Source: Rathayibacter agropyri
GTDB lineage: Bacteria > Actinomycetota > Actinomycetes > Actinomycetales > Microbacteriaceae
DNA: 64,000 nt
Direction of reading: 5' to 3'
NCBI RefSeq assembly: GCF_013249015.1
Contig: NZ_JABRPL010000004.1
Location: 1-64,000, forward strand
Shown: one piece after another, positions 29,389 through 46,736 of the stretch
Numbering within the stretch: the first letter of the stretch is position 1
How the letters are laid out: each line of letters opens with the position of its first letter
Program-made: the position numbers and the translations under genes
Notes under the pieces: generated by a model
What the model was told of the DNA's origin: nothing
Database searches by the model: none
Seen by the model: the letters and a program-made list of their open reading frames with translations, nothing else

Positions 29389-29450
29389 CACTGTCCAAGA
29401 GTTGTTCCACTGTCCAAAAGTTGTTCCACTGTCCAAAAGTTGTCGCAGTC
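29389..29450. repeat. Three 19-bp tandem repeats leading into a hairpin
   Basis: CACTGTCCAAAAGTTGTTC or a close variant starts at 29389, 29408 and 29427, with exact 19-base period. The third copy continues as the left arm of the hairpin at 29426-29481. Confidence 0.85.
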
Positions 29451-29481
29451 GACGCCGAGTGCGACAACTTTTGGACAGTGG
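29426..29481. repeat. Upstream hairpin of DUF559 cassette A
   Basis: A 22-bp perfect stem with a 12-base loop. The right arm contains GCCGAGTGCGACAACTTT, which recurs exactly in the hairpin downstream of the same gene. Confidence 0.88.
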
Positions 29482-29579
29482 TGCTCGGATGCTTCCTCCA
29501 CAGGCGGTGAATGCAGCAACTGTCCCCAGAAGTACCGGGACGAGGCCCGCGATGCTCCCGTGCCGTCCAGGCTGGCGGC

Positions 29580-30488
29580 ATGTCCAGCACCGACCTCAGC
29601 GCCTTCAGCCGACGCGCCGCCCTGCGCGCCGGGGCGACGGATGCGCAGCTTCGCTCCCCGGCCTTGGCCCAGCCCTTCCACGGCGTCCGCACCCGCGTCA
29701 CTCCGGTCACGCATCTCGAGCGCGCCGCGGCGTACGTCCCTCGGCTCCGCCCCTGGCAGCTCTTCTCGCACCTGACCGCGGCGCATGCGTGGGGAGTTCC
29801 GCTCCCCTTGCCGCCTCTCGAGGACGATCCGATCCACGTTTCGGCGCAGCCGCCTCATCGACCCCCGCGGACGCGGGGTGTGATCGGTCACACGCTCGGC
29901 GCCACAGATCGTGACGCTGTGGAGCGTCAGGGCCTGCGGATCACGGGTGCAGCGTCCACCTGGATCGCCCTGGCCCCCATGCTCTCGGATCGTGATCTGC
30001 TCGCCGCCACCGACTACTTCCTCTTCGTGCCGCGGCGCCCCCGCCGAGACGATCCCCGCCCGTTCGCCACCTTCAGCGAGCTCGAAGGGCGGCTCGCGAC
30101 GCATCGGGGCCGGGGGCGTCGAGGGCTCGTTGTCGCACTGCGGCTCGCCTCGACGAGGGCCGCCTCGCGCAAGGAGTCGTGGCTGCGGTCACTCGTCCTG
30201 CGGGCAGGGCTCCCCGAGCCCGAAGTGAACGCTGAGATTCGGGTCGACGGTCGACTCCTCGCCATCGGCGACGTGGTGTTCCGGCGGTGGAAAGTGGTGG
30301 CCGAGTACGACGGCGGGCAGCACCGGACGGATGACGCTCAGTTCGCACGTGATCGGGAACGGCTCCTCGCGCTGCAGCTCGCGGGCTGGATCGTCGTGGT
30401 CGTCCGGGCCGAGGGCCTGACCCGAGGCCGCGCGAGGACCGTCGCCGAGATTCGGGCCGCCCTGACGGCCCACGGGTGGAGAGCGTGA
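29580..30488 (+). CDS. DUF559 endonuclease-like protein (cassette A), Vsr-fold C terminus
   Basis: This 302-residue protein has an N-terminal winged-helix-like segment (about 8-45) similar to AbiEi-type antitoxin N domains, a middle region, and a C-terminal PD-(D/E)XK domain of the DUF559/Vsr type. Candidate catalytic residues are E199 (SRKESWLR), D231 (AIGDVVF) and E242 (EYDGGQH). The ATG at 29580 follows CAGGCT by 6 bases. It lies between convergent neighbours, is bracketed by related hairpins, and is homologous to the gene at 45834. The target and role are unknown; self-mobility, defence or repair are all possible. Confidence 0.8.
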   Translation: MSSTDLSAFSRRAALRAGATDAQLRSPALAQPFHGVRTRVTPVTHLERAAAYVPRLRPWQLFSHLTAAHAWGVPLPLPPLEDDPIHVSAQPPHRPPRTRGVIGHTLGATDRDAVERQGLRITGAASTWIALAPMLSDRDLLAATDYFLFVPRRPRRDDPRPFATFSELEGRLATHRGRGRRGLVVALRLASTRAASRKESWLRSLVLRAGLPEPEVNAEIRVDGRLLAIGDVVFRRWKVVAEYDGGQHRTDDAQFARDRERLLALQLAGWIVVVVRAEGLTRGRARTVAEIRAALTAHGWRA

Positions 30489-30511
30489 TGGGTGGATCAC
30501 CATCGCCGCGC

Positions 30512-30567
30512 CGAGTGTCCGAAAGTTGTCGCACTCGGCGCCGAGTGCGACAACTTTCGGACACTCG
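30512..30567. repeat. Downstream hairpin of DUF559 cassette A (56-bp perfect palindrome)
   Basis: 28+28 bp of perfect palindrome centred on GGCGCC, starting 24 bases after the stop. GCCGAGTGCGACAACTTT and the mirrored arm match the upstream hairpin with one or two differences. Confidence 0.9.
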
Positions 30568-30607
30568 CGGCGCGGCAGTGCGTCGAAACGCCGAGCGGAT
30601 GTCCGCG

Positions 30608-31636
30608 TCAGCTGCTGGCGCGCGCGACGAGCGTCGTCGGCATCAGCGTGCGGTGATCGACGGGCGAGCCCTCGATCCGAGCCGTCAGCAGTTCGGCCAT
30701 GCGCGCGCCGAGCTCGACGGGCAGCTGACGGACCGTCGTCAGCGCCGGCACTGCGTTCCGGGCGAACAGGTCGTCGTCGAAGCCGACGACCGAGACGTCC
30801 TCGGGGATGCGGCGCTGGGCCTCGCGCAGCGCAGCGTACGCGCCGACGGCCATCTGGTCGTTCGCCGCGAAGACGCCATCGATCGAGGGGTCACGCGCGA
30901 GGAGGCGGCGCATCGCCGCCGTGCCACTACCTGGCGAGAAGTCGCCCCACTCGACCAGGTCGTCATCGAGGCCGGCGTCCGAGAGCGCTCTGCGCCAGCC
31001 GATCAACCGGTCGACCCCGGGAGGCATGTCGGCCGGCCCGGCGATGGTTGCGATGCGCCGCCGTCCACGCTCGATCAGGTGTGCTGTCGCAACGGCTGCT
31101 CCGTCGGCGTTGTCCACGTCGACGTAATACGAGCCGCGCTCCTCGGGCGAGAGGGGGCGGCCGCCGAACACGATCGGCAGCGAGTCCGAGAGCGCCGCGT
31201 AGGAGTGGTCGCCGGAGTGGTGCGACACGACGATCGCGCCGTCGACGTTGCCGCCGAGGAGGTAGCGACGGGTTTTCTCTCCGCCCGTCTCGGAGGCGAT
31301 CAGCATCGAGAGCGTGTAGTCGGTGTCGGCGAGGCGCATCGCGGCGCCCTGCACGATGGCCGCGAAAAACGGGTCCGCAAAGACGCGGGCCGTCGATTCC
31401 GGCACGATCAGCGCGATCGAGTGCGTGCGCCGCGAGGCGAGCATCCGCGCCGCGTGGTTGGGCACGTAGTCCAGCTCGCTGATCGCCTTTTCGACGGCAG
31501 CGACGATGTCGGCTGCGACCTGCGGTGCTCCGTTGACGACTCGCGAGACCGTCGCCCGCGAGACGCCCGCTCGGGCTGCGACCATCTCGAGGGTGGGAGA
31601 GCGACCCCCTGGGCGAATGCCCGATCCCTCGCGCAC
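30608..31636 (-). CDS. LacI-family transcriptional regulator
   Basis: This 342-residue regulator has the LacI helix-turn-helix (TLEMVAARAGVSRATVSRVV, about residues 15-34), the hinge (YVPNHAARML) and a periplasmic-binding-protein-like effector domain. GVDRLIGWRRAL and GVFAANDQMAVGAYAAL are typical. Its GTG start lies 3 bases after the beta-glucosidase stop, so it is the second gene of that operon, and it very likely represses it in response to a beta-glucoside. A LacI-type palindrome occurs upstream of the operon. Confidence 0.9.
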   Translation of the reverse strand: MREGSGIRPGGRSPTLEMVAARAGVSRATVSRVVNGAPQVAADIVAAVEKAISELDYVPNHAARMLASRRTHSIALIVPESTARVFADPFFAAIVQGAAMRLADTDYTLSMLIASETGGEKTRRYLLGGNVDGAIVVSHHSGDHSYAALSDSLPIVFGGRPLSPEERGSYYVDVDNADGAAVATAHLIERGRRRIATIAGPADMPPGVDRLIGWRRALSDAGLDDDLVEWGDFSPGSGTAAMRRLLARDPSIDGVFAANDQMAVGAYAALREAQRRIPEDVSVVGFDDDLFARNAVPALTTVRQLPVELGARMAELLTARIEGSPVDHRTLMPTTLVARASS

Positions 31637-31639
31637 GGC

Positions 31640-33115
31640 TTAGTCCAGCGCTGCCGCGGCGCTGCCGCCGATCAGGCGCGCGAAAACGAGGCCCGAGTCC
31701 TTCACGAGGCGCTCCTGCGACTCGTAGTCGACGCGGACAATCCCGAACCGCTTCTCATAGCCCCAGGCCCACTCGAAGTTATCCAGCAGCGACCAGACGA
31801 AGTAGCCGCGCACATCGGCGCCCTGGTCGATCGCATCGGCGACCTTCTCCACATGGTCGAGCACGTACTGAGTGCGGTCGGCATCGTGCACGCGGCCCTC
31901 GACGGCAGCGTCGTCATAGGCGGCTCCGTTCTCGGTCACGTACAGCGGAGGGAGGTTCTCGTACTCGAGGCCGAGTCGGGTGAGCAGGTAGCGCAGCCCG
32001 TCCGGGTGCACCTCCCAGTCCATTGCCGTGCGAGGCAGATGGCGCGAGGGAAAGGTAATGAACTCCGAACCGACCCAGGGGGAGCCCACCTCGCGGTCGG
32101 TGGCCTGCGCGAAGTCCTCGGCGCCGGCGGGCAGCGGATGCGCCGAGACGTTGTCGTCGTGGTAATGGTTCACGCCGAGGAAGTCGAGCGGAAGCGAGAT
32201 CAGGTCGAGGTCGCCGTCGATGATCAGTTCGTCGAGACCAAGGCCCGCGACGTCCGTGAGCAGGTCTTCGGGGTACTCGCCGCGCAGCAGCGGGTCGAGG
32301 AAGAGACGGTTCTGCAGTGCGTCGAAGCGGCGCGCGGCCTCAAGGTCGGCCTCATCCTCCGGGTCGTCCGGTACGGCGTTCGACAGATTGAGCGTGATGC
32401 CCACATTCTGCGCGCCGAGCTGCCGCAGCGTCGAGACGGCGAGGCCGTGAGCAAGGTGGGTGTGGTGCACGGCGGCCAGCGCCTTCTGCTGCGAGATCAC
32501 GCCGGGAGCGTGCACGCCCGCACCGTACGAGAGGAGGGTCGAGCAGAAGGGCTCGTTGAAGGTGGTCCAGTGCTGGACGCGATCGCCGAGGCTCTCGTAG
32601 ACGGCCTCGGTGTAGTCCCCGAAGCGTTCCGCCGTGTCGCGGTTCGCCCAACCGCCGGTTTCCTCGACCGCTTGCGGCAGATCCCAGTGGTAGAGCGTCA
32701 GCCACGGCAGGATGCCCGCGCCCAAAAGTTCGTCGACAAGGCGGGAGTAGAAGTCGAGACCCTCCGAGTTCACCGAGCGGTCGCCAGGCTTGACGCGCGA
32801 CCAACTCACGGAGAAGCGGTAAGAGCCGAGTCCCAACTCCTTCATCAGCTGCACATCCGCGGGCATGCGGTGGTAGTGGTCGACCGCGACCTCGGGAGTG
32901 TCGCCGTTCGCGACCGCGCCGGGAACGCGGGAGAACGCATCCCAAATGCTGTCCTGCTTGCCCGCCTCGTGGCCAGCGCCCTCGATCTGCGCGGCGGCGG
33001 TAGCGGAGCCCCAAAGGAACCCGGCGGGCCAGTCGCGCACGGCCAGTCGCTCGGCTCTCGCGGTCTGCTCCGCGAGGATCGGGCTCACGGGGGAGGGGAT
33101 GCTGGCGGCACTCAT
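31640..33115 (-). CDS. GH1 beta-glucosidase (cytoplasmic)
   Basis: This 491-residue glycoside hydrolase family 1 enzyme carries the acid/base Glu in TFNEP (E188) and the nucleophile Glu in YVTENG (E395). N-terminal FLWGSATAAAQIEGA and C-terminal GYFVWSLLDNFEWAWGY complete the family pattern. It has no signal peptide, so it acts on imported cellobiose or other beta-glucosides. The ATG at 33115 has AAGGAG 6 bases upstream. The operon continues with a LacI regulator; no sugar-transport gene adjoins it. Confidence 0.93.
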   Translation of the reverse strand: MSAASIPSPVSPILAEQTARAERLAVRDWPAGFLWGSATAAAQIEGAGHEAGKQDSIWDAFSRVPGAVANGDTPEVAVDHYHRMPADVQLMKELGLGSYRFSVSWSRVKPGDRSVNSEGLDFYSRLVDELLGAGILPWLTLYHWDLPQAVEETGGWANRDTAERFGDYTEAVYESLGDRVQHWTTFNEPFCSTLLSYGAGVHAPGVISQQKALAAVHHTHLAHGLAVSTLRQLGAQNVGITLNLSNAVPDDPEDEADLEAARRFDALQNRLFLDPLLRGEYPEDLLTDVAGLGLDELIIDGDLDLISLPLDFLGVNHYHDDNVSAHPLPAGAEDFAQATDREVGSPWVGSEFITFPSRHLPRTAMDWEVHPDGLRYLLTRLGLEYENLPPLYVTENGAAYDDAAVEGRVHDADRTQYVLDHVEKVADAIDQGADVRGYFVWSLLDNFEWAWGYEKRFGIVRVDYESQERLVKDSGLVFARLIGGSAAAALD

Positions 33116-33143
33116 TGCGGACTCCTTCGGCGGCTGTCCCACC

Positions 33144-33171
33144 AGTCTAGGGCGTCGATGGAGCGCTCTCT
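33144..33171 (-). promoter_or_regulatory. Promoter and LacI-type operator of the beta-glucosidase operon
   Basis: TAGACT (minus strand, 33149-33144) is a -10-like box. GAGCGCTC (33161-33168) within TGGAGCGCTCTC resembles the actinobacterial CelR/BglR operator TGGGAGCGCTCCCA and would overlap the -35 region, fitting repression. Confidence 0.5.
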
Positions 33172-33211
33172 TGCGCGGGATGACGGTGCAGGTGAGTCGA
33201 GGCGGCCTGCT

Positions 33212-33292
33212 GCCGTCGAGGTGCCGCGGGAGGCGCGGCGCCTCGACGGCACAGCCGGTGTCTCGGTGGCGTGGGGCTTGAGACACCGGCTG
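33212..33292 (-). terminator. Two tandem hairpins downstream of the MFS gene
   Basis: GCCGTCGAGG (33212-33221) pairs with CCTCGACGGC (33241-33250), extended by GCCGC/GCGGC; CAGCCGGTGTCTC (33252-33264) pairs with GAGACACCGGCTG (33280-33292). Together they separate the MFS gene from the beta-glucosidase promoter. Confidence 0.7.
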
Positions 33293-33325
33293 CGTGACCA
33301 GCGTGCGGGGCGTGCTCGACCGAGG

Positions 33326-35146
33326 TCAGGCGCCCTCGCGGGGTGGCAGCGTCCGCACCGAGTCGGTCCGGATGTCGGGCTCGATGCTCCCGGCGGCGAG
33401 GTCGGCTCCGGCGCGCGCGGCGAGCTGCGGATCCGTCCGGCGCAGTTGTGCAGCGGTGTCCTCGTTCGCGAGGTCGTGCGCCTCCTGCATCGCCGACTTC
33501 GCTCGCAGAGGCGGCGTGCGGAGGAACCAGGAGAGTACGAAGGCGAGCAGCACGACTCCGAGCGCGACCTGGAACACCGTGACCGTGGCGTCATTGAAGC
33601 CCGTCAGGAACGGGGCCGAGAGCGCCCGGTCGGCGGTGTTCAGGAACGAGGTGTCGCCGTCGAGCGCCGAGCCGATCGCCGCAGTGTCCTGCGACTGCAG
33701 GAGCTTCAGGATCCCCGTATTGGCGGGGTCAGCGATGACGGCCGGGTCGGTGGCGGCGCGCTGCAGATCCGCCGCGATCGTCGGGTTCTTGAAGGCCGAG
33801 CCAATGGTCTCAGGGATGCGGCTGAAGAGCACCGAGAAGATCACCGCGGTGCCCAGCGTCCCACCAATTTGACGGAAGAACGTCGAGGCGCTGGTCGCGA
33901 CTCCCATGTTCGCCACGTCGACCGAGTTCTGCGAGGCGAGCGTCAGCGTCTGCATCATTTGGCCGAGGCCAAGGCCCAGCAGCAGCATGCCGCCCATCAT
34001 GAAGATCACCGGCTTGTCGATCGTCACGAAGGTGAAAGAGAAGAAAGCGGCCGACATCAGGAAGGTGCCCACGATCGGGAAGGCGCGGTAGCGACCCGTG
34101 CGCGAGATGATCTGGCCCGAGACGATCGAGGCGATCATCAGGCCGAGGATCATCGGCAGCATCAGGAAGCCGGACTCGGTCGGAGTCGCACCGTTGACGA
34201 GTTGCAGGTACAGCGGGATCGCCATCATGCCGCCGAACATGCCGAAGCCGACCAGCACACCGAGCACGGTCGCCATCGAGAAGGTGGGCGAGCGGAAGAG
34301 CTTGAGCGGGATCAGCGCGTCGTCGCCCATCATCCGCTCGGCCGCGATGAAACCGATAATGCCCAGCGCGCCGACGATGTAGCAGACCCATGCGATCGGC
34401 GAGCCCCAGCCCCACTCACGCCCTTGCTCGGCGATCAGCAGGAGCGGACCGGCGGCGACGATGACGAGCGACGCTCCCCACCAATCGATCCGCACCGAGC
34501 GCTTCCCGGCGGGCGTAGGCAGGTGCAGGAAGCGCACCACGATGAACAGTGCGACGGCGCCGATCGGAAGATTGATCAGGAACACCCACCGCCAGCCGGT
34601 AATGAAGAGGATCTCAGGAGTGCCGGCGAGCAGGCCGCCGATGAGCGGGCCGACGACACTCGAAATGCCGAAGACGGCCAGGAAGTAGCCCTGGTACTTT
34701 GCACGCTCGCGCGGGGGGAGGATGTCGCCCATCACGGTGAGGGCGAGCGACATCAAGCCGCCGGCACCGAGTCCCTGCACGGCGCGGAAGCCCGCGAGCC
34801 CGAGCATCGAGGTCGAGAAGCCAGCGAGCGTCGATCCGATCAGGAACAGCACGATCGCGATCAGGTACAGCGGTCGACGTCCGAAGATGTCCGAGAGCTT
34901 CCCATAAATGGGAGTCGCGATCGTCGAGACGATCAGGTACGCGGTGGTCACCCATGCCTGCTGCGAAAGTCCGTCGAGGTCGTCCGCGATGGTGCGCATG
35001 GAGGTGCCGACGATCGTCTGGTCGAGCGAGGAGAGGAACATCCCCGCCATCAGGCCGAAGATCACGAAAAGAATTTGCCGGTGCGACATAATGGCGCCGG
35101 ACGGCGTCGGTGTCGCAGCGGGTGGAGTGGAGGCGGAGTCAGCCAC
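33326..35146 (-). CDS. DHA2-family (EmrB/QacA-type) MFS multidrug exporter
   Basis: This 606-residue transporter has 14 predicted helices and the DHA2 signatures LDQTIVGTSMRTIADDL (helix 1, motif D1), GKLSDIFGRRPLY (motif A) and RAVQGLGAGGLMSLALTV (helix 4). An extracytoplasmic insertion before the last helix and a 70-residue hydrophilic C-terminal tail are seen. It should export toxic organic molecules using the proton gradient. It stands alone with no adjacent TetR or MarR regulator. The N-terminal 18 residues are Pro/Thr-rich. Confidence 0.9.
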   Translation of the reverse strand: MADSASTPPAATPTPSGAIMSHRQILFVIFGLMAGMFLSSLDQTIVGTSMRTIADDLDGLSQQAWVTTAYLIVSTIATPIYGKLSDIFGRRPLYLIAIVLFLIGSTLAGFSTSMLGLAGFRAVQGLGAGGLMSLALTVMGDILPPRERAKYQGYFLAVFGISSVVGPLIGGLLAGTPEILFITGWRWVFLINLPIGAVALFIVVRFLHLPTPAGKRSVRIDWWGASLVIVAAGPLLLIAEQGREWGWGSPIAWVCYIVGALGIIGFIAAERMMGDDALIPLKLFRSPTFSMATVLGVLVGFGMFGGMMAIPLYLQLVNGATPTESGFLMLPMILGLMIASIVSGQIISRTGRYRAFPIVGTFLMSAAFFSFTFVTIDKPVIFMMGGMLLLGLGLGQMMQTLTLASQNSVDVANMGVATSASTFFRQIGGTLGTAVIFSVLFSRIPETIGSAFKNPTIAADLQRAATDPAVIADPANTGILKLLQSQDTAAIGSALDGDTSFLNTADRALSAPFLTGFNDATVTVFQVALGVVLLAFVLSWFLRTPPLRAKSAMQEAHDLANEDTAAQLRRTDPQLAARAGADLAAGSIEPDIRTDSVRTLPPREGA

Positions 35147-35285
35147 GGTGGTCCCCTTGTCTGGCGGACGCGTCCAGGCACGGCGATCCGCCGCAAACGT
35201 TGCGTGCTGCGCAAACTTACATCCTGTGCGAGGTTCCAGGCAGAGCTTCCGGCGAGCCTGAGCAGGATCTCAGGTCCCCGATCCG

Positions 35286-36830
35286 TCACACGCGCACCGA
35301 GACAGCCTCGTCGGCCCAGCCGGCCTCGCGCAGCGCGGCGCGCGCCTCCGCTCGAGCGGAGTAAGGCGTGCGCACCCCGAGGACGTCGCGGTAGTTCTGG
35401 TGGCCCGGGCCCGCCCAGAGGATGGCGTCGCCCTCGCGTGCGAGCGAGACCGCGACCCGGATGGCGCGCTTGGGATCGTCGACCTCGTGCACATGCGCGT
35501 CGGGGCGTGCCGCGAGGGCCGCGTCGATGAGGGTGCGCCGGATGGCGACGGGATCCTCGAAGCGGGGATGGTGGTCGGTGACGACCAGAATGTCGCTTCC
35601 TGTCACCGCCGCCTCGGCCATAGCGGGGCGCTTGAGGGCGTCGCGGTCGCCGTCGGCACCGAACACCATAATCACGCGGCCAGGGGTGACCTGTCGGACC
35701 GCCTCGAGCGTGCGCTGGAACGCGTCGGCGCTGTGGCCGAAGTCCACGTACACGGTCGGCCCGCGCTCGCCGGAAACACGCTCGGTGCGGCCGGGAAGGG
35801 AAGCATCGACTCCGCCGTCACGGTGCAGCGCGGCTCGGATCTCGCCGATCGGCCAGCCCGCCTCGATCAGCATCACGATAGCGAGCGCGGCATTGGCAGC
35901 CATGTGCGCGCCGATGATCGGCACCGATGTCGTGATGGCGCGTCCCTCGCGGTTCTCCATCCGAAAGCGCGTGCGGCCAAACTCCTGCGCGAGCACGCTC
36001 ACCCGCCAGTCCGCATCGACGTCAGGCAGGGAGGCGATGGTCGTCACCGGCACTCCGGCCACGGCACAGATCCGCTCGCCGTAAGGGGAGTCGAGCGAGA
36101 CGACAGCACGACGGGCGCGATCGGGCTGGAACAGCTGCGCCTTCTCGCCGAAGTAGGTGTCCATGTCTCCGTAGTCGTCGAGGTGGTCGTGGCTCAGGTT
36201 GGTGAATCCGGCGACATCGAACACGACGCCGTCGACGCGGTGCCGGGTGAGGGCCTGGGCGCTGACCTCGATGGCGGCGGCGCCGACGCCCTCCTCCTCC
36301 ATGCGGGCGACGAGAGCGTGCAGCTCGGTGGCCTCGGGAGTAGTCAGGCCGCTGGTCACGGACGTGTCACCGATGTGCCGTTCGGCCGTGGAGCTCAGGC
36401 CGGGAACCACGCCGAGCTGGCGCAGGATGCCCTCGAGCATGTGCACGGTCGAGGTCTTGCCGTTGGTTCCGGTCACGCCAAAGAGCACGGGGGAGCGTTC
36501 GGCGGTTCCGTACACGGCGGCGGCGATGGCGCCCAGACGGGAGCGCGGCTCCGGCACCACCAGGACGGGCAGGCCGGTCGTGCGCGCGGCGCTCTCGCCG
36601 AGGGGGTCGGTGAGCACCGCAACCGCGCCTCGGGACACCGCCTGCTCCACGAAGTCGGCGCCGTGGCGGTATGCGCCGGGCAGGGCGACGAAGAGGTCTC
36701 CTGGTTCGACGTCGGAGGCGATCAGCGTCACTCCGGTGATCGCGGTGGTAGGCGCGTTGTCGCTCTCGACGTCGAGGGTGCGCGCGAGTGCGAGGAGAGG
36801 AACGGACGGAGCGTGGCGGGGTCGGAGCAT
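35286..36830 (-). CDS. murE: MurE-like UDP-MurNAc-tripeptide synthetase with an altered amino-acid recognition motif
   Basis: This 514-residue Mur ligase has N-terminal UDP-binding, central ATPase and C-terminal domains. The P loop GVTGTNGKTST (118-128), LTTPEATELH, the carbamylated-Lys segment EKAQLF (K230) and HPRFEDP (421-427) are present. In diaminopimelate-adding MurE the recognition motif is DNPR; here it reads HHPR (420-423), so a different third-position amino acid, or a specialised paralogue, is possible. Microbacteriaceae often have B-type peptidoglycan with diaminobutyrate, ornithine or lysine. It does not lie in a division/cell-wall cluster. GAGGA precedes the ATG. Confidence 0.8.
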   Translation of the reverse strand: MLRPRHAPSVPLLALARTLDVESDNAPTTAITGVTLIASDVEPGDLFVALPGAYRHGADFVEQAVSRGAVAVLTDPLGESAARTTGLPVLVVPEPRSRLGAIAAAVYGTAERSPVLFGVTGTNGKTSTVHMLEGILRQLGVVPGLSSTAERHIGDTSVTSGLTTPEATELHALVARMEEEGVGAAAIEVSAQALTRHRVDGVVFDVAGFTNLSHDHLDDYGDMDTYFGEKAQLFQPDRARRAVVSLDSPYGERICAVAGVPVTTIASLPDVDADWRVSVLAQEFGRTRFRMENREGRAITTSVPIIGAHMAANAALAIVMLIEAGWPIGEIRAALHRDGGVDASLPGRTERVSGERGPTVYVDFGHSADAFQRTLEAVRQVTPGRVIMVFGADGDRDALKRPAMAEAAVTGSDILVVTDHHPRFEDPVAIRRTLIDAALAARPDAHVHEVDDPKRAIRVAVSLAREGDAILWAGPGHQNYRDVLGVRTPYSARAEARAALREAGWADEAVSVRV

Positions 36831-37041
36831 GGAGTCCTCTCGTCGACGGTCCCGTGGGGGTCGCGCGGCCGAAAGGGGGCGGGCGCGGGGCCGTGGATGT
36901 CACCCAAGCTAGGGGTTCGCTTATGTGAATCCTAAGAGGATATGCAAGACGCACGTGGAGGGGGACGGGTGGACAGGATCGCGGGTCGGTGCATCCGTCT
37001 TCCGCGTCCGGTGACGTCCACGGGGGACAGACCTCGCTGTC

Positions 37042-39537: not shown

Positions 39538-39652
39538 CCGAGGCGGCGCTCTCACCGAGACGGCAGAGGGGGCCGCCTCCGCCGAGCGGTGACGACCCCT
39601 CTCGGGCGATCGAGTCGTCCACCGGCGGATGACGGGAAGACTCACGGCCGGT

Positions 39653-40273
39653 TCAGGCGACCCGGTCCTCCTTGGAGAAGCCGGCGCGTGCGCTCGAGGC
39701 GACCTCGAGCACGACGGGCAGGCGAGCGCCGAGCAGGGTGTCGAGAGCCTCGACCTCTCGGTGCACGGCGTCGATCACGGTACGCGGCGAAACTCCTGCG
39801 CGGGGCAGTGCCCGCACCTTCAGCGCGGTGTCCGAGCCGTGACGGTAGGCGGAGACCGTGACGTCGAGCAGCTCGGAGCGACCGGCAAGCGCGTTCTCGA
39901 GGACGTCCTCGGCGAAGCCGGTGGCGATCTCGATCCCGCCCGCGGGGCCTTCGTCCGACTCGTCGCGGAGCACCGTGTTCACGCGGCCGTGACCGTGCGC
40001 GAACATCAGCACCAGCGCGAGGACGACCCCCAGGAGGCAGATGCCGATGATCGCGTACAGCGGCCACAGGGCCGCGCCGTCGTTCCAGGCCGTGCCCCGC
40101 CCGGGCGAGATCCGCGAGGCGAGCGCGGCGCCCTGGCCCTCGCCGAAGGACGAGACGGCGTCGCGTACCGGCTGCGAGACGGCGATCAGGACGGCGCCTG
40201 CGCTGACCGCGGCGAGCAGGAGGCCCGTCACGAGCAGAACGAGGCGATTGACGAAGCGGTTGCTCGTGGTCAT
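39653..40273 (-). CDS. AmaP-like membrane anchor of the Asp23 cluster
   Basis: This 206-residue protein has two membrane helices (about 8-30 and 70-92) and a cytoplasmic C-terminal domain of Asp23-type fold. AmaP in staphylococci tethers Asp23 to the membrane; this protein has the same layout and location. It is the last gene of a five-gene operon and overlaps the preceding gene by one base. Assignment rests mainly on topology and operon context. Confidence 0.7.
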   Translation of the reverse strand: MTTSNRFVNRLVLLVTGLLLAAVSAGAVLIAVSQPVRDAVSSFGEGQGAALASRISPGRGTAWNDGAALWPLYAIIGICLLGVVLALVLMFAHGHGRVNTVLRDESDEGPAGGIEIATGFAEDVLENALAGRSELLDVTVSAYRHGSDTALKVRALPRAGVSPRTVIDAVHREVEALDTLLGARLPVVLEVASSARAGFSKEDRVA

Positions 40274-40872
40274 CAGATCTTCCCGGAGTCGGAGACGCGG
40301 ACGGTGGCGCGGGTGGCGGGTGCCGCCGCGATGCGGGCGAGTTCCTCGTCGACCGCTTTCTGCACCAGATCGCGGTCGACCGCGATGCCGGAGGCGGGAG
40401 TCACCTCGACCAGCGCGGTGCGCCGTCCGAGAGAGGCGCGGGTGTCCTCGCGTCGTGAGTGGGCGGCGGTGCGCGCTGTCCGCGCGAGTGCGGAGGCGAT
40501 GACGCCGTCATCGACCACGACCGCGAGCCGGTCGTCCTCGACGGTGTGCCTGGCGCGGGCTCCCGGTGCTACAGCAAGCACCAGGAGGATCAGCGCGAGG
40601 ATCCCCGCGGTGACAGCCACACCGATCAGGGCCGGCTGAGCCAGCGCCGCGACCGAGACGAGGGCGCTGAGCAGTGCCGACGGGGCAAGCAGGAGCGGGG
40701 CTACGCCGAGCACGGCGAGCACTGCCTCCGTACCGACATAGGCGGCGACGAGTGTGATGAGCACCAGCACAATGATCTGCGCGGCCGAGCGGGAACTGTG
40801 CGTCTCACGGCGGAGGTAGCGGCGATACCGGGCGCGGGGCTCGGCGTCGCGGGCGGCGCGTGCGGGACTCAT
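40273..40872 (-). CDS. DUF6286-like two-helix membrane protein of the Asp23 cluster
   Basis: This 199-residue protein has an N-terminal basic region, two or three membrane helices (about 30-52, 55-105) and a C-terminal soluble part (TVEDDRLAVVVDDGVIAS, later VQKAVDEELARI) of the kind found in actinobacterial DUF6286 proteins. It is in-frame overlapping on both sides within the operon, so it is probably a partner in the same membrane complex. Function is not established. Confidence 0.75.
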   Translation of the reverse strand: MSPARAARDAEPRARYRRYLRRETHSSRSAAQIIVLVLITLVAAYVGTEAVLAVLGVAPLLLAPSALLSALVSVAALAQPALIGVAVTAGILALILLVLAVAPGARARHTVEDDRLAVVVDDGVIASALARTARTAAHSRREDTRASLGRRTALVEVTPASGIAVDRDLVQKAVDEELARIAAAPATRATVRVSDSGKI

Positions 40873-41210
40873 GCGACTCTCCTCGTGGTTCGAGCGCGGG
40901 TGCCCGTGACCCGGATGTCGACCCGGGTGACGGTTCGGCCGGTAAGTACCTGCATCCGAGAGGCGATGCGGGAGCGGTCGCGGTGAAGGCGATCGAGCAG
41001 AGGGTCGCCGGTCGCCTCCTCAAGGACAACGGGAGCGGTGATGGCGAGCGCGAGGCCGCCGCGATCATCCGACAGCCGGACGCGGATCGCAGAGACCTCG
41101 ACGCCCAGCTCCTCGTGGACGATCGCCACGGCCGCGCGCTCGATCGAGCGGGTGGTGATGGTGACGGTGCCCGCCACCGGCGAGGCGGGACGCGTGTCGA
41201 GAGCGGTCAC
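40869..41210 (-). CDS. Small Asp23/Gls24-like protein
   Basis: This 113-residue soluble protein is predicted alpha/beta, with GTVTITTRSIERAAVAIVHE and a final basic stretch. Its pattern of short strands and an amphipathic helix resembles truncated Asp23/Gls24 domains. It lies in the middle of the envelope operon, overlapping the next gene by four bases, and starts 9 bases after the preceding one. Family assignment is tentative. Confidence 0.65.
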   Translation of the reverse strand: MTALDTRPASPVAGTVTITTRSIERAAVAIVHEELGVEVSAIRVRLSDDRGGLALAITAPVVLEEATGDPLLDRLHRDRSRIASRMQVLTGRTVTRVDIRVTGTRARTTRRVA

Positions 41211-41219
41211 GAAGGACTC

Positions 41220-41453
41220 CTAGCGGGAAGTCGTGCGGCCGCGGAACACGTCCACGAGGCTGCGCACGTCGAGGGAGCCGTCGGCGACCCGGGCGAGCGC
41301 GACGCCCAGGGCCATGAACACGGCCGTCAGCACGAAGCCCCAGAAGCCGAAGAGCAGGGCCGCGAAGGCGAGGATCGCGCCGATCGCGACACCGAGGACG
41401 GTGCTGCGTCCGCCGGGGGCGGTGGGGCGGGAGGAGTCGCCGAAGCCGCTCAT
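41220..41453 (-). CDS. DUF2273-like small membrane protein
   Basis: This 77-residue protein has two hydrophobic segments joined by a short Phe/Gly turn (LGVAIGAILAFAALLFGFWG, then FVLTAVFMALGVALARV). DUF2273-type proteins are regular neighbours of Asp23/Gls24 and AmaP genes. It overlaps the upstream asp23-like gene by four bases (ATGA). It is probably part of the membrane anchor complex. Confidence 0.78.
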   Translation of the reverse strand: MSGFGDSSRPTAPGGRSTVLGVAIGAILAFAALLFGFWGFVLTAVFMALGVALARVADGSLDVRSLVDVFRGRTTSR

Positions 41454-41935
41454 CGGACGCGGCTCTCGGTCGACTCGTCGTCCTTGTCGGACTTGTCGTC
41501 GCCGGGGATGTGCACGTCGACGATCGCGATGTTGATGTCGGCGACGTCCATGCCCACCAGCTCGGTGATCGCGCTGGCCACGGCCGCGCGGACGGCATTG
41601 GCAACCTGCTGCATCGGGACCGGGTACTCGACGACGACGGTGACGTCGGCGGCGACCTGCGTCTCGCCCACCTCGACGCTCACGCCCTGGGAGTGGTCGG
41701 CGCCGCCGACGGCCTGGCGGATCGCGCCGAACGCGCGGGCGGCGTTGTTGCCGAGGGCGTAGACGCCGGGAACCTCGCGGGCCGCGATGCCCGCGACCTT
41801 CGCGACGACACCGTCGTCGATGACCGTGGTGCCCTGCGCCGTGCCGGAGCCGGTGGAGCCGCCGAGGCTGGTCACCGTTTCGACGGGAGCTGTGCCGGCG
41901 CGGGCGGTAGAGGGAGGAGGAGTGCTGTTGCTCAT
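41450..41935 (-). CDS. Asp23/Gls24 family envelope stress response protein
   Basis: This 161-residue protein has a Ser/Thr/Pro-rich N terminus (1-35) and then the Asp23 domain: GVVAKVAGIAAREVPGVYAL, VSVEVGETQVAADVTVVVEY and VNIAIVDVHIPGD-type segments. Asp23 coats the inner membrane in staphylococci and responds to alkaline shock or wall stress. It is first in the operon, reading away from a divergent sigma-factor gene 198 bases off. The C terminus is acidic and charged. Confidence 0.87.
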   Translation of the reverse strand: MSNSTPPPSTARAGTAPVETVTSLGGSTGSGTAQGTTVIDDGVVAKVAGIAAREVPGVYALGNNAARAFGAIRQAVGGADHSQGVSVEVGETQVAADVTVVVEYPVPMQQVANAVRAAVASAITELVGMDVADINIAIVDVHIPGDDKSDKDDESTESRVR

Positions 41936-42133
41936 GATGTCTCCTGAACGTCGTGTCGGCCGCAGTACGAGCAGACCGGAATGGAAAGCCCGGCGGTTCT
42001 CCGCTCGGGCTGTGCTTTCATGAGTGAGACGGATTCCCTCGCGGCTTCGTCACGGTGCGGATCACGATTTTTCCTGACTGTTCCCCGATAGTCTTCCGGC
42101 CACTCCGGCCGGTTCTGCGAATGGAGGCGGCAC

Positions 42134-42682
42134 ATGCCCGGTCTGGAGTCGGCGAGCGATGCGCTCCTCGCCGAGCGCTCCGCCGAGGGCGATGTGCGGG
42201 CCTTCGAGATGCTGGTCAAGCGGCACCAGTCGATCCTGCGGGCCTACGCTTGGCGGCTGACCGGCTCGCAAGCGGACGCTTCGGATGCCGTGCAGAACGC
42301 GCTGATCACGGTGTGGGCGCAGCTGCCTCAGCTGAAGGAGCCCGCCAGCGTGCGCAGCTGGATGATGCGGATCGTCAGCCGCTCGAGTGTCGACTTGCTG
42401 CGCCAGCGCCGCCCGACCGACGACGTCGATGCCGTGGAGCATCCGCCGTCGCGCGAGCCCGGTCCGTTCGAGGCCGTGGAGCAGAGCGACGCCATGAGAG
42501 CGCTCGCGCACGCGCTCTCGGAGCTGCCGGAGTCGCAGCGCCAATGCTGGTTGCTGCGCGAGGTCGGCGGGGAGTCCTACCACGAGATCGCCGACCATCT
42601 CGGGCTGACACCCACCGCCGTTCGGGGCAAGCTCGCCCGCGCGCGCGATGCGCTGGTCGTGGCGATGGAGGACTGGCGATGA
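42134..42682 (+). CDS. Sigma-70 family (ECF-type) RNA polymerase sigma factor
   Basis: This 182-residue sigma factor has region 2 (AFEMLVKRHQSILRAYAWRL... VRSWMMRIVSRSSVDLLR, about 24-90) and region 4 (ALSELPESQRQCWLLREVGG and SYHEIADHLGLTPTAVRGKL, about 125-175). Regions 1 and 3 are absent, as in ECF factors. GGAGG precedes the ATG. The two following genes encode Asp23-like proteins and start 13 bases and then 4 overlapping bases further on, so the cluster is led by its own sigma factor. No anti-sigma gene is recognisable unless one of those two serves. Confidence 0.9.
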   Translation: MPGLESASDALLAERSAEGDVRAFEMLVKRHQSILRAYAWRLTGSQADASDAVQNALITVWAQLPQLKEPASVRSWMMRIVSRSSVDLLRQRRPTDDVDAVEHPPSREPGPFEAVEQSDAMRALAHALSELPESQRQCWLLREVGGESYHEIADHLGLTPTAVRGKLARARDALVVAMEDWR

Positions 42683-42695
42683 GGGAGCAGACGCG

Positions 42696-43328
42696 ATGAA
42701 CGCGGATCAGACCCCCGGCGACGGGCAGGGGCTCGGTGAGGAGCACGACGTCGTGCCGCCTCCCGTGCAGGAGCAGGACGGCATCGGGATCGACGAGTTG
42801 AGCGACTACCTCGACCGCGGCCGTTCTCCCTACGATCCGGTGATCGAGGAGTCCCCCGAGCACCGTCGCACTCTGCGCGCCCTCGAACGAGTCCGTGCGC
42901 TCTCGGGCGCGCTCATCGATGATGACGCCGCGCGACTACCGGCCCCTGAGGCGAGCTGGTTCGGCTCGATCCTCGCCCAGGCGCGGAGGGAGGCCCGCGC
43001 GGGCCGCGATATCCCTTTCGCGAGCATGCAGCCGGACATGTCGCTGACCATCACCGAGGGGGCGGTCCGCGGCCTCGTCCGCGAGGCGGGCGACAGCGTC
43101 CCGGGCGTCCTCGTCGGCCGCTGCCGACTCGTCGGCGACATCGACGTCGGCGCAGAGGTAGTGGTGGAGGTGACGATCTCGGTCTTCTGGGGCATCCCGA
43201 TCGCCGAGGCCGCTCAGCAGGTCCGTGAGCGCGTGCACACGCGGCTGCTCACCCAGACCGAGCTGCGGGTCTCGACCATCGACGTCCGCGTCGAGGACGT
43301 CTATCTTCCCGAGGCGGAGGAATCGTGA
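42696..43328 (+). CDS. Asp23-like protein following the sigma factor
   Basis: This 210-residue protein has an acidic N-terminal half (1-75) containing DELSDYLDRGRSPYDPVIE, a pattern reminiscent of the anti-sigma or receptor-binding part of zinc-free regulators, and a C-terminal Asp23-like domain (about 105-205: SLTITEGAVRGLVREAGDSVPG). The ATG at 42696 is preferred over one further upstream because it has GAGGGAG before it. It overlaps the next gene by four bases. A role in controlling the sigma factor is inference only. Confidence 0.72.
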   Translation: MNADQTPGDGQGLGEEHDVVPPPVQEQDGIGIDELSDYLDRGRSPYDPVIEESPEHRRTLRALERVRALSGALIDDDAARLPAPEASWFGSILAQARREARAGRDIPFASMQPDMSLTITEGAVRGLVREAGDSVPGVLVGRCRLVGDIDVGAEVVVEVTISVFWGIPIAEAAQQVRERVHTRLLTQTELRVSTIDVRVEDVYLPEAEES

Positions 43329-43702
43329 GCCCGCGACCGCCCGCTGCGCCGGGCCCGACGGCGGCGCTCGCCGCCGAGCTGCGCCTGCTCGATGGAGTGG
43401 CGACCCTGGTGCCGGTGCGGCCGGAGGTACGCGACGTCCTCGCCCAGGCGGCCTCCGCGCTGAGTGCGCGGGGTCTCGCGATCGAGGCCCTCGGCAGGGC
43501 GAGCGGCGGCACGCCAGCCGAGCCGGTGCTGGTGCGGATCGTGGGCGAGGAGGTGTCGGTCTCGGTGGATGTGGGCGTGACAGCCGATGCCTCGGCTCCC
43601 GATGTCGCCCGTGCGGTGGGAGCGGCCGTGCGCGAGTGGTGCCGTCGCGAGCATCCGCTGCTGCACCCCCGCGTGGCCGTGCGGATCGCCGCCGTCGACT
43701 AG
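43325..43702 (+). CDS. Small unknown protein of the sigma/Asp23 operon
   Basis: This 125-residue soluble protein begins MSPRPPAAPGPTAALAAELR and holds VRIVGEEVSVSVDVGVTAD then ARAVGAAVREWCRREHPLL. The strand-helix pattern is that of Asp23-type domains, but the similarity is weak. The GTG start overlaps the preceding stop. It is the last gene of the operon, ending 7 bases from the convergent ribokinase-like gene. Confidence 0.65.
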   Translation: MSPRPPAAPGPTAALAAELRLLDGVATLVPVRPEVRDVLAQAASALSARGLAIEALGRASGGTPAEPVLVRIVGEEVSVSVDVGVTADASAPDVARAVGAAVREWCRREHPLLHPRVAVRIAAVD

Positions 43703-43709
43703 GGCGCGC

Positions 43710-44654
43710 TCAGCGGACGCGGTCGTCGGCGCGCTCCGCGAGAAACGCCTCCGTCTCGGCGGCCGTGGGGGCCGAGACAGCCGCTCCGTGCCGCGTGACG
43801 GAGATCGCGGCTGCCGCACTCGCCCACCGCACGAGCGCTCTCAGGGGCTCCGGATCATCATGGCGAACCCCGGTTGCCGCCAGGCGCGCGGCGAAGGCGC
43901 CGCAGAAGGTGTCGCCGGCGCCTGTGGTGTCGACCGCCTCCACCCGGAACGCCGGAGCGCGCGCGGGCTCGCGCCCGCGGATCGCGACGACCACGCCGTC
44001 CGACCCCAGGGTGACGAGCACGAGCGGGACGAGCGCGGTGAGCGCAGCGGCAAGCGCGTCGTCGCTCTGCGCGGCGATCCCGCAATCAGAGGCGAGCTCG
44101 CGTGCCTCGTGCTCGTTCACGATCAGCACATCGAGCGCGTCCAGCAGCTCCGCGGGCAGCGGTCTGATGGGAGCGGCGTTCAGGATCGACACCGTGCCGG
44201 CCGCGCGGGCGGTGCGTGCCGCCTCCGTCACACTCGCCAGCGGGATCTCGAGTTGCAGCAGGAGCGCGTCGGCGGCGGCCACCAGGCTTTTTTCCTCAGC
44301 GGTGAGGCGGAGCAGGGCGGTGTTGGCTCCGGAGTCGACGACAATCGCGTTCTCGCCGCGTTCGTCGACCGTGATGTGGGCAGTGCCGGTGCGTAGGTCG
44401 CCGCGCCGGGCGTGCAGCGTCAGCGGTTCGTTGCCGAGCACGCCCGCGAGTTCGTCACCCGCCGCGTCTCGGCCCAGGCTGGTGACGAACGCGGTGCCTG
44501 GCTCGGTGCGCGCCGCGGCAACCGCCTGGTTGAGGCCCTTGCCGCCGGGGAATGCGCGGGAATCACGCGCGAGAACGGTCTCGCCCGGAGCCGGGATGCG
44601 CACGACGCGGTGCACGTGGTCGAGGTTGGTGCTGCCGAGGACGAGGAGTGGCAT
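43710..44654 (-). CDS. Ribokinase-type PfkB-family sugar kinase
   Basis: This 314-residue kinase has GGKGLNQAVA (PfkB signature 1 region, substrate binding) and DTTGAGDTFCGAFAARL (signature 2, with catalytic Asp and anion hole GAGD). NLDHVHRV near the N terminus is the sugar-contact segment. It phosphorylates ribose or a related sugar; specificity for ribose is likely but not proven. A TACCGT box lies 7 bases before the ATG, diverging from the aldo/keto reductase promoter. Confidence 0.88.
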   Translation of the reverse strand: MPLLVLGSTNLDHVHRVVRIPAPGETVLARDSRAFPGGKGLNQAVAAARTEPGTAFVTSLGRDAAGDELAGVLGNEPLTLHARRGDLRTGTAHITVDERGENAIVVDSGANTALLRLTAEEKSLVAAADALLLQLEIPLASVTEAARTARAAGTVSILNAAPIRPLPAELLDALDVLIVNEHEARELASDCGIAAQSDDALAAALTALVPLVLVTLGSDGVVVAIRGREPARAPAFRVEAVDTTGAGDTFCGAFAARLAATGVRHDDPEPLRALVRWASAAAAISVTRHGAAVSAPTAAETEAFLAERADDRVR

Positions 44655-44661
44655 GCCCTCG

Positions 44662-44713
44662 ACGGTAGGGCATGCGCAAGGGGGTCCGCCGCGTCTGGGG
44701 CCGCGCCTACGGT
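44662..44713. promoter_or_regulatory. Divergent leaderless-type promoters for the sugar kinase and aldo/keto reductase
   Basis: TACCGT on the minus strand (44667-44662) lies 7 bases before the kinase ATG, and TACGGT on the plus strand (44708-44713) lies 6 bases before the reductase ATG at 44720. Confidence 0.5.
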
Positions 44714-44719
44714 AAAGGC

Positions 44720-45706
44720 ATGGACACTCGAATCCTCGGCCGCACTGGCGCGCCCGTCTCCGTCGTCGGCCTCGGAACCTGGCAGCTCGGTGCCGACTGG
44801 GGGGATGTCGCCGAGGGCGACGCCCTCGCCGTGCTCGACGCTGCGGTGGAGTCGGGCGTCACTCTGTTCGACACCGCCGACGTGTACGGCGACGGCCGCA
44901 GTGAGCGCACGATCGGCGCCTACCGCGCCGCGCACCCCGACGCCCACGTCTTCGTGGCCACCAAGATGGGCCGCCGCGCGGAGCAGATTCCCGCGAACTA
45001 CGTCCTCGACAACTTCCGCGCATGGACCGACCGCTCCCGCGCCAACCTCGGCGTCGACACCCTCGACCTCGTTCAGCTGCACTGCCCGCCCACCTCCGTC
45101 TACTCCGACGACGCCGTTTACGACGCGCTCGACACCCTCGTCGCGGACGGCGCGATTGCCCACTACGGAGTCTCGGTCGAGCGCACGGAGGAGGCGCTCG
45201 CCGCGATCGCCCGGCCGAACGTCGCGAGCGTCCAGATCATCCTGAACGCGTTCCGGCTCAAGCCGCTCGATGAGGTGCTGCCGGCGGCTCGGGAGGCGGG
45301 TGTCGGCATCCTGGCGCGTGTCCCGCTCGCCTCCGGTCTGCTCAGCGGGCGCTACACGACCGAGACGGCGTTTGCTCCGGACGATCACCGCAGCTACAAC
45401 CGCGACGGCTCGGCCTTCGACGTCGGCGAGACGTTCTCGGGCGTCGACTTCGCGACCGGAGTCGAGGCCGCGCAGGAGTTCTCGCGCCTCGCGGACGACC
45501 ACGGCCTCGCTCCCGCCGCGGCGGCCCTCGCCTGGATCATTCAGCAAGACGGCGTCACCTCGGTGATCCCCGGCGCCCGCTCGCCCGAGCAGGCCCGTGC
45601 CAACGCAGCCGCCGCCTCCGCTGCGCCCCTCGGCCCCGCCTTCATGGAGGCGGTCACCGCCCTCTACGACACGCACTTCCGCCCCACCATCCACCCCCGC
45701 TGGTAA
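44720..45706 (+). CDS. Aldo/keto reductase
   Basis: This 328-residue (beta/alpha)8 oxidoreductase uses NADPH to reduce aldehydes or ketones. The catalytic tetrad is visible: Asp and Tyr in FDTADVYGDGRSE, Lys in VATKMG and His in VQLHCPP. NADPH-binding sequence VIPGARSPEQARANA is near the C terminus. Substrate unknown. The ATG at 44720 follows a TACGGT box and an AAAGG that might serve as ribosome site. It is single, ending 14 bases before cassette B. Confidence 0.9.
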   Translation: MDTRILGRTGAPVSVVGLGTWQLGADWGDVAEGDALAVLDAAVESGVTLFDTADVYGDGRSERTIGAYRAAHPDAHVFVATKMGRRAEQIPANYVLDNFRAWTDRSRANLGVDTLDLVQLHCPPTSVYSDDAVYDALDTLVADGAIAHYGVSVERTEEALAAIARPNVASVQIILNAFRLKPLDEVLPAAREAGVGILARVPLASGLLSGRYTTETAFAPDDHRSYNRDGSAFDVGETFSGVDFATGVEAAQEFSRLADDHGLAPAAAALAWIIQQDGVTSVIPGARSPEQARANAAAASAAPLGPAFMEAVTALYDTHFRPTIHPRW

Positions 45707-45720
45707 CAGCACCGCTGCTG

Positions 45721-45774
45721 ACTCGCCCGAGAAGGCTCGTTCTCCCGCCCGAGAACGAGCCTTCTCCGGCGAGT
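45721..45774. repeat. Upstream hairpin of DUF559 cassette B
   Basis: Arms GAGAAGGCTCGTTCTC (45729-45744) and its complement (45751-45766) extend by one mismatch and seven more pairs (45721-45727 with 45768-45774), leaving a 6-base loop. It lies between the reductase stop and the DUF559 start. Confidence 0.88.
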
Positions 45775-45833
45775 GAGCGAGAGGCTGTGGAGAGTTCGAG
45801 CGGAGAAAGGGGCGCGGGCGCCAGCATGGGCGC

Positions 45834-46685
45834 GTGCAGAAGGATGTGTTCAGGGTGGCGGAGGGGTCCGCGGCGGGGCTGTCGCGGGCGGCAATGCGCA
45901 GGATCGACGCGCCGGTCTACGGGATGCGATCGATCACTCCCGCCGTGACGCTGGTGGATCGCTGCTCAGCGCTCCTTGCCCGGCTGGGCGGTCACGCGTT
46001 CGTCTGCGGACCGACCGCGGCGCTGCTCTGGGGTGCGCCCCTTGATCGCCACTGGGAGGAGCGCACTGCACTCGACGTCGCCGTTGAGGCGCCGGCTCGC
46101 GCGCCGCACGCTACCGGGATCGCTGGACGCTCCGTTCGCCTCGGGCCCGGGGACGTCCTCGACGGACGGCGCGGGCGCCTCACCGGTCCCGCTCGCACCT
46201 GGTGCGACCTGGGTGCGGTCCTGCCGCTTGCCGATCTCGTGGCCGTTGGCGACTTCCTCCTGCACGCGAGGCTGATCGACGGGGCTGGCCTGAAGGCCGC
46301 GGTCGAGCGCTACCCCGGTCGCCGGGGGCTGCGCCTGCTCCGCACCGCGCTCGCGCTCCTCGACGGGCGGGCCGAGTCTCGCCCGGAGTCGCTGGTGCGG
46401 GTCGCGCTGGTGCTCGCCGGGATTGCGGGCATCGAGGCGAACGTCGTGATCCGCGATGAGAAGGGCGGCTTCCTCGCCCGCGTCGACCTCTGCATCGCCT
46501 GGGCGCGGGTGGTGATCGAGTATCACGGCGACTACCACCGGGTCGAGAAGGGCCGCTGGCGTCGAGACCGCGCCCGCGCCGGGCGCCTCCGGGCCGCGGG
46601 ATGGAACGTCATCGAACTCACCGGCGACGACCTCACCGATCTCCCCGCGGTCGTCGCCGCCGTTCGTGCGGCGCTCCGGCCCTGA
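45834..46685 (+). CDS. DUF559 endonuclease-like protein (cassette B), Vsr-fold C terminus
   Basis: This 283-residue protein is homologous to the one at 29580: winged-helix-like N terminus, a middle segment TGPARTWCDLGAVLPLADLV matching TGAASTWIALAPMLSDRDLL of the first, and a C-terminal PD-(D/E)XK domain with E185 (SRPESLVR), D218 (ARVDLC) and E229 (IEYHGDYH). The GTG start at 45834 follows CAGCAT by 6 bases. The gene lies between convergent neighbours and is bracketed by two hairpins of almost identical sequence. Its function is unknown. Confidence 0.8.
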   Translation: MQKDVFRVAEGSAAGLSRAAMRRIDAPVYGMRSITPAVTLVDRCSALLARLGGHAFVCGPTAALLWGAPLDRHWEERTALDVAVEAPARAPHATGIAGRSVRLGPGDVLDGRRGRLTGPARTWCDLGAVLPLADLVAVGDFLLHARLIDGAGLKAAVERYPGRRGLRLLRTALALLDGRAESRPESLVRVALVLAGIAGIEANVVIRDEKGGFLARVDLCIAWARVVIEYHGDYHRVEKGRWRRDRARAGRLRAAGWNVIELTGDDLTDLPAVVAAVRAALRP

Positions 46686-46686
46686 A

Positions 46687-46736
46687 TCGCCCGAGAAGGC
46701 TCGTTCTCGATGCGGAGAACGAGCCTTCTCGGGCGA
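46687..46736. repeat. Downstream hairpin of DUF559 cassette B
   Basis: A perfect 22-bp stem (inner arm GAGAAGGCTCGTTCTC at 46693-46708) with a 6-base loop, starting 2 bases after the stop codon. 21 bases of its left arm are identical to the upstream hairpin. Confidence 0.9.

Follow-up and report, generated by a model that had tools for sequence, protein, structure and literature searches.

How do two related genes come to lie each between a pair of matching palindromes, when the palindromes of one gene do not resemble those of the other? The question is raised by a stretch of 64,000 nucleotides from Rathayibacter agropyri (contig NZ_JABRPL010000004.1, positions 1 to 64,000; hereafter the window), which contains two genes for proteins with an AbiEi-like N-terminal part and a C-terminal DUF559 nuclease domain, referred to below as the genes of site 1 and site 2. 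The proteins are homologous (31% identity, E 3e-20) and have the same domain order, and the palindromes that bracket their genes, each of about 55 bp, are alike within a locus and unlike between loci. In these respects the initial annotation of the window was right. Our answer, which we consider somewhat more probable than an even chance, is that the nuclease of each such gene recognises one private palindrome and maintains its genome-wide population, as the REP-associated tyrosine transposases (RAYTs) are thought to do for repetitive extragenic palindromic (REP) sequences and for their hairpin-forming doublets (REPINs). Confidence in this reading is kept moderate because some genomes hold palindromes out of step with their resident gene.

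Matching flanks recur among genes of this kind. The profile PF04480 gave 90 matches in 15 Rathayibacter genomes (3-11 per genome), of which 89 were fetched and one was left out for an internal stop; five loci of Microbacterium sp. Root180 and the two window genes were added. Over all samples, L124 and L287 were too short to be used and L312 lies at a contig edge. Each locus was scored by the best ungapped match of its upstream against its downstream flank, with a threshold of 18. This threshold was reached by 50 of the 95 usable loci, versus one of 516 within-genome swapped pairs and none of 188 windows shifted by 2.3 kb; at a score of 20 or more the numbers were 46 loci, no swapped pairs and no shifted windows. 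The loci are not independent, the 96 of them representing 26 sites, and those with matching flanks are spread over 11 of the 26, with palindromes that differ from site to site. Scores of 18 or more were also obtained for 19 of 28 usable Microbacterium loci (4 of 140 cross-genome swaps) and for 6 of 21 two-domain genes in a phylum-wide sample (0 of 105 swaps), the loci of both samples being best matches and not a random sample. Of seven short DUF559 proteins in the phylum-wide sample, one reached the threshold and the others scored 14 or less. Of the first four loci identified in named genomes, that of R. iranicus carries both hairpins, and that of Microbacterium sp. Root180 carries both and a third copy 2 kb off. 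Matching flanks are common in Rathayibacter and Microbacterium, rarer in the phylum-wide sample and never universal; DUF559 genes flanked by palindromes peculiar to each locus do form a class, as the initial annotation had proposed.

Some flanks have a different organization. At one site, represented by L055 and by L044, L046, L048, L052, L053, L068, L079 and L088, several flanks hold short motifs, repeated and ending in GCAGG, in place of a single well-formed hairpin; what is recognised there may be a short motif that occurs in several arrangements. At L315, in the phylum-wide sample, a stretch of tandem repeats of 182 bp lies on one side of the DUF559 gene and its inverted counterpart on the other.

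Within the genus the genes themselves stay in place. The site-1 gene follows a methylase gene in 12 of the 14 readable Rathayibacter genomes; the exceptions are G004, with a gene remnant without hairpins, and G011, without gene and hairpins, and in G016 the site falls at a contig edge. The site-2 gene is present in 12 of 15 genomes; of the empty places, that of G007 is without a hairpin and those of G014 and G011 have hairpins with a different sequence. The ratio of nonsynonymous to synonymous substitution rates (dN/dS) was 0.09-0.22 in all ten ortholog pairs. DUF559 genes occupy conserved sites under purifying selection, and it is the palindromes that spread, contrary to the earlier picture of mobile genes. 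After the phosphoglucomutase gene of G011 (L167), where most species have a DUF559 gene, we observed four tandem copies of a 74-76-bp hairpin together with a different one.

The mean identity of palindromes within a locus was 0.89 at site 2, 0.77 at site 1 and 0.85 at a third site, compared with between-species identities of 0.78, 0.64-0.68 and 0.78-0.79, respectively (12 of 13 loci at site 2, 10 of 12 at site 1 and 9 of 9 at the third site entered the comparison). Relative to its neighbours, the site-2 gene has the reverse of its usual orientation in 4 of 13 loci (L064, L069, L094, and L098); the gene tree implies at least three changes of orientation, one of which separates L059 from its sister gene L069 (support 89/90). 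The species clade of G003, G006, and G015 is strong in both the phosphoglucomutase and the methylase trees. The site-2 protein of G003 nevertheless groups with that of G016, and the two share orientation and palindrome type. Forcing the species grouping on the site-2 tree was rejected by the approximately unbiased (AU) test (p 0.0044), a result weakened by the fact that the group was named only after the element tree had been seen. Similarly, the two palindrome types of site 1, GTCG and GCGG, track the gene lineage and not the species: G007 groups with G003 and G006 (97/96), and the genes of G008 and G015, which are outside the site-1 tree, are nearest to same-type genes of G007 and G005. The type of element is thus tied more closely to the lineage of the gene than to the species.

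Joint transfer of a gene and its flanks is explained by their linkage, which leaves the solo copies of the palindromes unexplained. Away from the gene, the site-2 core occurs in palindromes of about 55 bp, mostly just past the ends of open reading frames (ORFs). Paired copies of this core off the gene were found in each of the six genomes searched whose gene carries that core (G001, G004, G008, G010, G012, and G013), and none was found in the three that lack the gene (G007, G011, and G014). For site 1, 44 GTCG arms were listed in R. iranicus, 42 of them of its own gene's variant and three being the gene's own flanks. Other genomes with a GTCG gene hold 10 (G010), 18 (G012), 23 (G013), 33 (G009), 41 (G005) and 41 (G015) such arms; there are five in G004, where the gene has decayed, two in G011, which has no gene, none in G014, which has another palindrome, and one in G016, where the site is unread. 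The per-genome counts of GTCG and GCGG are complete, and placements refer to the matches listed only.

If the palindrome type is set by the resident gene, G003, G006, G007, and G008 are predicted to have complete GCGG palindromes and the remaining 11 genomes to have none. The prediction held in all four (11, 16, 24, and 20 palindromes, respectively) and in eight of the eleven, six of which have no such palindrome, G011 one and G015 two. A control with the reversed GCGG sequence gave no match in any genome. Each of the 54 GCGG solo units read in the four GCGG-gene genomes was nearest to the gene subtype of its own group (G003/G006 or G007/G008). As judged with a rough ORF caller, 50 of these units lie outside called ORFs and 4 are flagged inside one; 24 are between convergent ORFs and 21 more have one facing gene end. 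Comparison of orthologous places revealed presence and absence of solo copies. Near a tRNA-Ser gene, a solo of the site-2 type is present in G013 and G008 and absent in G009, G005, G016, G015, and G006, which have the same next gene, and the sequence is different in G010, G012 and some others. At a MarR gene, a solo is present in G013 and absent in G012, G008, and G010, whose sequence beyond differs, and a solo of the third palindrome family found in G012 is absent from G007. Palindrome copies are linked to the resident gene, though only loosely.

Another repeat, GGCGTATCGAGACCCACC with TGCTGGTCGAGTAGCC, was noticed near gene ends at L201, L233, L248, and L249; it may represent an additional family of REP-like repeats, without an evident partner.

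The protein itself has features of a nuclease. The nearest solved fold to the predicted structure of its C-terminal domain is the homing endonuclease I-Bth0305I (EDxHD, Vsr-like), so that the suggestion of a homing-type endonuclease in the initial annotation probably holds for the fold. Residues E199, D231, H248, and D258 are invariant among six aligned family proteins; among 141 proteins the E is conserved in 97% and the two D in 99% each, and the H is less constant. These four are probably the residues of the EDxHD motif. The DUF559 entry in Pfam is without a stated function.

A second common feature lies upstream of the genes. The motif CTGTGGA, on either strand, precedes the start in 68 of 95 loci; in six other windows taken from these loci it is present in 0-7 of 95-96, and ahead of other ORFs in 2 of 302 windows. 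Its extended form TGTGGA[TC]AA, the complement of the high-affinity DnaA boxes of E. coli and of Streptomyces/Mycobacterium as given in PMC4285127, occurs perfectly 14 times in 28 kb of windows upstream of DUF559 genes, versus none in 752 kb of the remainder. CTGTGGA is commoner with flanked (45 of 50) than with unflanked genes (23 of 45); its enrichment is weaker in Microbacterium (11 of 29 vs 0-4) and was not found in the phylum sample (3 of 19 vs 1-3 of 21). The resemblance to DnaA boxes may tie the system to replication.

We infer that the DUF559 protein binds, cuts and copies the palindromes. In this scheme the AbiEi-like N-terminal part would bind the palindrome and the C-terminal domain of the EDxHD/Vsr fold would be the cutting part, acting perhaps on hairpins that the palindrome forms in the single-stranded DNA of replication forks. 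New intergenic copies would then arise by repair or reinsertion, which would also keep the two gene-flanking copies alike. A wider proposal, which we make tentatively and judge to fall somewhat short of an even chance, is that of a second, independently evolved REP system in Actinobacteria, in which homing-endonuclease-fold nucleases under a DnaA-box-like signal, possibly timed to replication, each maintain and spread a private palindrome; a genome could contain several such pairs, and these would be exchanged between species at fixed sites.

A number of observations speak against the assignment of the palindromes to the nuclease. Palindrome types are out of step with the resident gene in several genomes: GTCG arms occur in the four genomes with a GCGG gene (11 in G006, 11 in G007, 19 in G008, and 32 in G003), complete GCGG palindromes occur contrary to the prediction in G010, G012, and G013 (9, 33, and 26), so that seven genomes hold both site-1 types in number, and G005 and G016 each hold one solo of the site-2 core though their own genes have other variants. 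It is possible, by analogy with the 'orthoswitch' of RAYT/REP, that the types out of step are relics left after gene replacement. In two of the ten site-1 loci (L118 and L126) the palindromes match less within the locus than between species; linkage alone could hold gene and flanks together, and ordinary recombination could yield the inversions and the homogeneity within loci. No insertion was seen at base resolution, and exact target-site duplications, sought between orthologous loci, were not found, the flanks being too diverged. The structure model is modest (predicted local distance difference test, pLDDT, 64; predicted template modelling score, pTM, 0.50), and a search with Foldseek alone had no match with an E value as low as 0.001. 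Finally, both Cryobacterium loci among the four first found are without paired hairpins, and matching flanks are missing from 45 of 95 loci in the Rathayibacter set, from 9 of 28 in Microbacterium and from 15 of 21 genes in the phylum sample. The initial annotation would have been contradicted by most members lacking hairpins, which is the case in the phylum-wide sample and is not the case in the Rathayibacter set or the Microbacterium sample.

The same data can be explained differently. The protein could be a site-specific DNA-binding factor, an AbiEi-like regulator or a nucleoid or termination factor, with the palindromes as selected, coevolving sites at gene ends that are not mobilised. The AbiEi-like N-terminal part, the gathering of solo units at gene ends (24 convergent and 21 with one facing end among the 54) and the concerted change of sites with the gene agree with this explanation. 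We nevertheless regard it as unlikely, given that the nuclease residues are nearly invariant, that the dispersed units are whole palindromes of about 55 bp with conserved outer parts and not short sites, and that the presence of palindromes varies between relatives. A quite unlikely explanation, in our estimate, is that the palindromes are moved by another enzyme, or by replication slippage and recombination, and that the nuclease gene is carried along between two copies or is insulated by them to its benefit. Seven genomes do hold, in number, palindrome types other than that of the resident gene, and recombination between inverted repeats suffices for the inversions; against this, homologous genes are bracketed at 11 of 26 sites by different families at different sites, the solo units match the gene subtype in 54 of 54 cases, and a Y1 transposase, the one transposase family looked for, was not found.

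The model of the initial annotation, in which the genes move freely and their endonuclease homes into terminators of the hairpin type, seems very improbable, even though the fold is that of a homing endonuclease and elements have apparently been replaced at the same site across species. The genes are at conserved sites, two of the three empty site-2 places have hairpins of other sequence and one has none, the gene has an intact candidate cut site on either side, which a classical homing allele does not, and the hairpins of site 1 have no U-tract terminator features.

Among known systems, the closest parallel is REP/RAYT. In both, a single gene at a stable place lies between palindromes (here in 50 of 95 loci, and so not in all members), the same palindrome is dispersed between genes, often convergent ones, near 3' ends, and several families coexist in a genome. 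Also shared are palindromes that differ between orthologous genes and copies that do not correspond to the resident gene, the 'orthogroups' and 'orthoswitch', respectively, of RAYT/REP in PMC3686654. Genomic placement of REP/RAYT and variants flanked by terminal inverted repeats (TIRs) are treated in PMC3733652, which also reports some REP families without a dedicated transposase (CGTC REPs), and REPINs are described in PMC3116915. The difference lies in the enzyme, an AbiEi-like and DUF559 protein and not a Y1 (HUH) transposase. A hidden RAYT as the mobiliser was considered and rejected: PF01797 (Y1/RAYT), the only transposase family searched, was found in none of the 15 genomes, the same search being positive in 6 of 14 control genomes. 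In addition, palindrome copies number tens here and hundreds there, and no constant GTAG/CGTC tag of REPs was seen by eye among the units read. The system is REP/RAYT-like in its way of working, yet outside REP/RAYT by the defining transposase; the distinction drawn in the initial annotation stands for the enzyme and not for the behaviour, which is closely parallel.

Other known systems share parts of the protein. With the EDxHD homing endonuclease I-Bth0305I it has in common the predicted fold of the catalytic domain and, probably, the conserved E, D, H, D; in contrast, the gene here is free-standing and chromosomal, its candidate sites are intact on both sides, so that the target, if it is the palindrome, is not destroyed, and in place of the extended DNA-binding modules described for the phage EDxHD enzymes there is the AbiEi-like part. 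In type IV toxin-antitoxin systems of the AbiE type, AbiEi is the antitoxin; here the AbiEi-like part is fused to a nuclease domain, and no AbiEii toxin gene was found among the four neighbours scanned, all in the window. By sequence the C-terminal domain belongs to Pfam DUF559/REase_MTES_1575: both window proteins match DUF559 slightly above the family cut-off, REase_MTES_1575 is matched only below its own cut-off, and neither matches a family in NCBIfam. Phage or plasmid cargo was likewise rejected. A plasmid search with protein P0002 gave two records, both from Arthrobacter, and one with the DNA of 28000-32000 yielded nothing but matches of 60-90% identity that each covered less than 80% of the query; a phage search with P0001 gave one weak hit, and PHROGs a single match, with E 0.24, for one protein. 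In the open-access literature, searched by title and start of abstract, no paper joining DUF559 genes with flanking palindromes was found.

The features of the window are collected in Table 1. The site-1 gene is preceded by a DNA methylase gene on the forward strand and followed by a LacI regulator on the reverse strand, the site-2 gene by an aldo/keto reductase (forward) and a phosphoglucomutase (reverse), which confirms that both are at convergent junctions. The site-1 protein has 93% identity with a protein of R. iranicus. The open frame of site 1 begins at 29511; the start was set at 29580 because ATG 29511, unlike ATG 29580, is absent from the R. iranicus gene. The -10-like box placed 6 bases before the start in the initial annotation was not confirmed: ATG 29511 is not conserved, and a scan of 24000-31000, a range that includes only the first of the two sites, found no sigma-70-type promoter there.

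Table 1. Positions of the palindromes, genes and upstream motifs in the window
Feature	Position	Strand	Remarks
Solo palindrome between a response-regulator gene and terC	24790-24859		doubtful member of the class
Two degenerate tandem half-copies left of the site-1 upstream palindrome	29389-29427	+	direct repeats of the palindrome arm; 3 and 2 mismatches
Upstream palindrome, site 1	29426-29481		core TGTCCAAAAGTTGTCGCA; orthologous copies also found
DnaA-box-like CTGTGGA, site 1	29497-29503	-	between palindrome and start; next bases GGA, imperfect box
Site-1 gene	29580-30488	+	AbiEi-like N-terminal part and nuclease domain of DUF559/predicted EDxHD fold
Downstream palindrome, site 1	30512-30567		core TGTCCGAAAGTTGTCGCA
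Upstream palindrome, site 2	45717-45778		core GCCCGAGAAGGCTCGTTCTC
DnaA-box-like CTGTGGA, site 2	45785-45791	+	next bases GAG, imperfect box
Site-2 gene	45834-46685	+	homologous AbiEi-like and DUF559 protein
Downstream palindrome, site 2	46687-46736		

Ten hairpins were listed in the window, and the five with an arm score of 21 or more are the four that bracket the genes and the hairpin at 24790. The site-1 core occurs six times in the window at up to three mismatches (0.15 expected) and the site-2 core five times (0.38 expected), once away from the gene, at 19640 (3 mismatches). The 24790 hairpin, which had been taken for a gene-free example of the class, is real and conserved, recurring at the equivalent position in 7 of 13 orthologous loci; none of the 13 has a DUF559 gene there. 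Its kinship with the gene-bracketing palindromes is doubtful: among 325 loci searched its exact core was found solely at the terC place, in six, and it is possibly a lineage-specific terminator. The palindromes in general had been called terminators; within 24000-31000, the range scanned, neither the hairpins of site 1 nor the one at 24790 scored as a U-tract terminator. Actinobacterial terminators may lack U tracts, and the terminator reading is therefore only weakened.

REP palindromes are common in bacteria. If the nuclease-palindrome relationship proposed here is true, a population of palindromes is served by an unrelated nuclease, and the REP way of life would have evolved more than once. 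The AbiEi-like/DUF559 proteins, of which there are 3-11 in each of the 15 Rathayibacter genomes, would gain a candidate substrate, in many cases directly readable from the adjacent DNA. As many of these genes would thus name their own candidate target, specificity would be testable on dozens of natural pairs.

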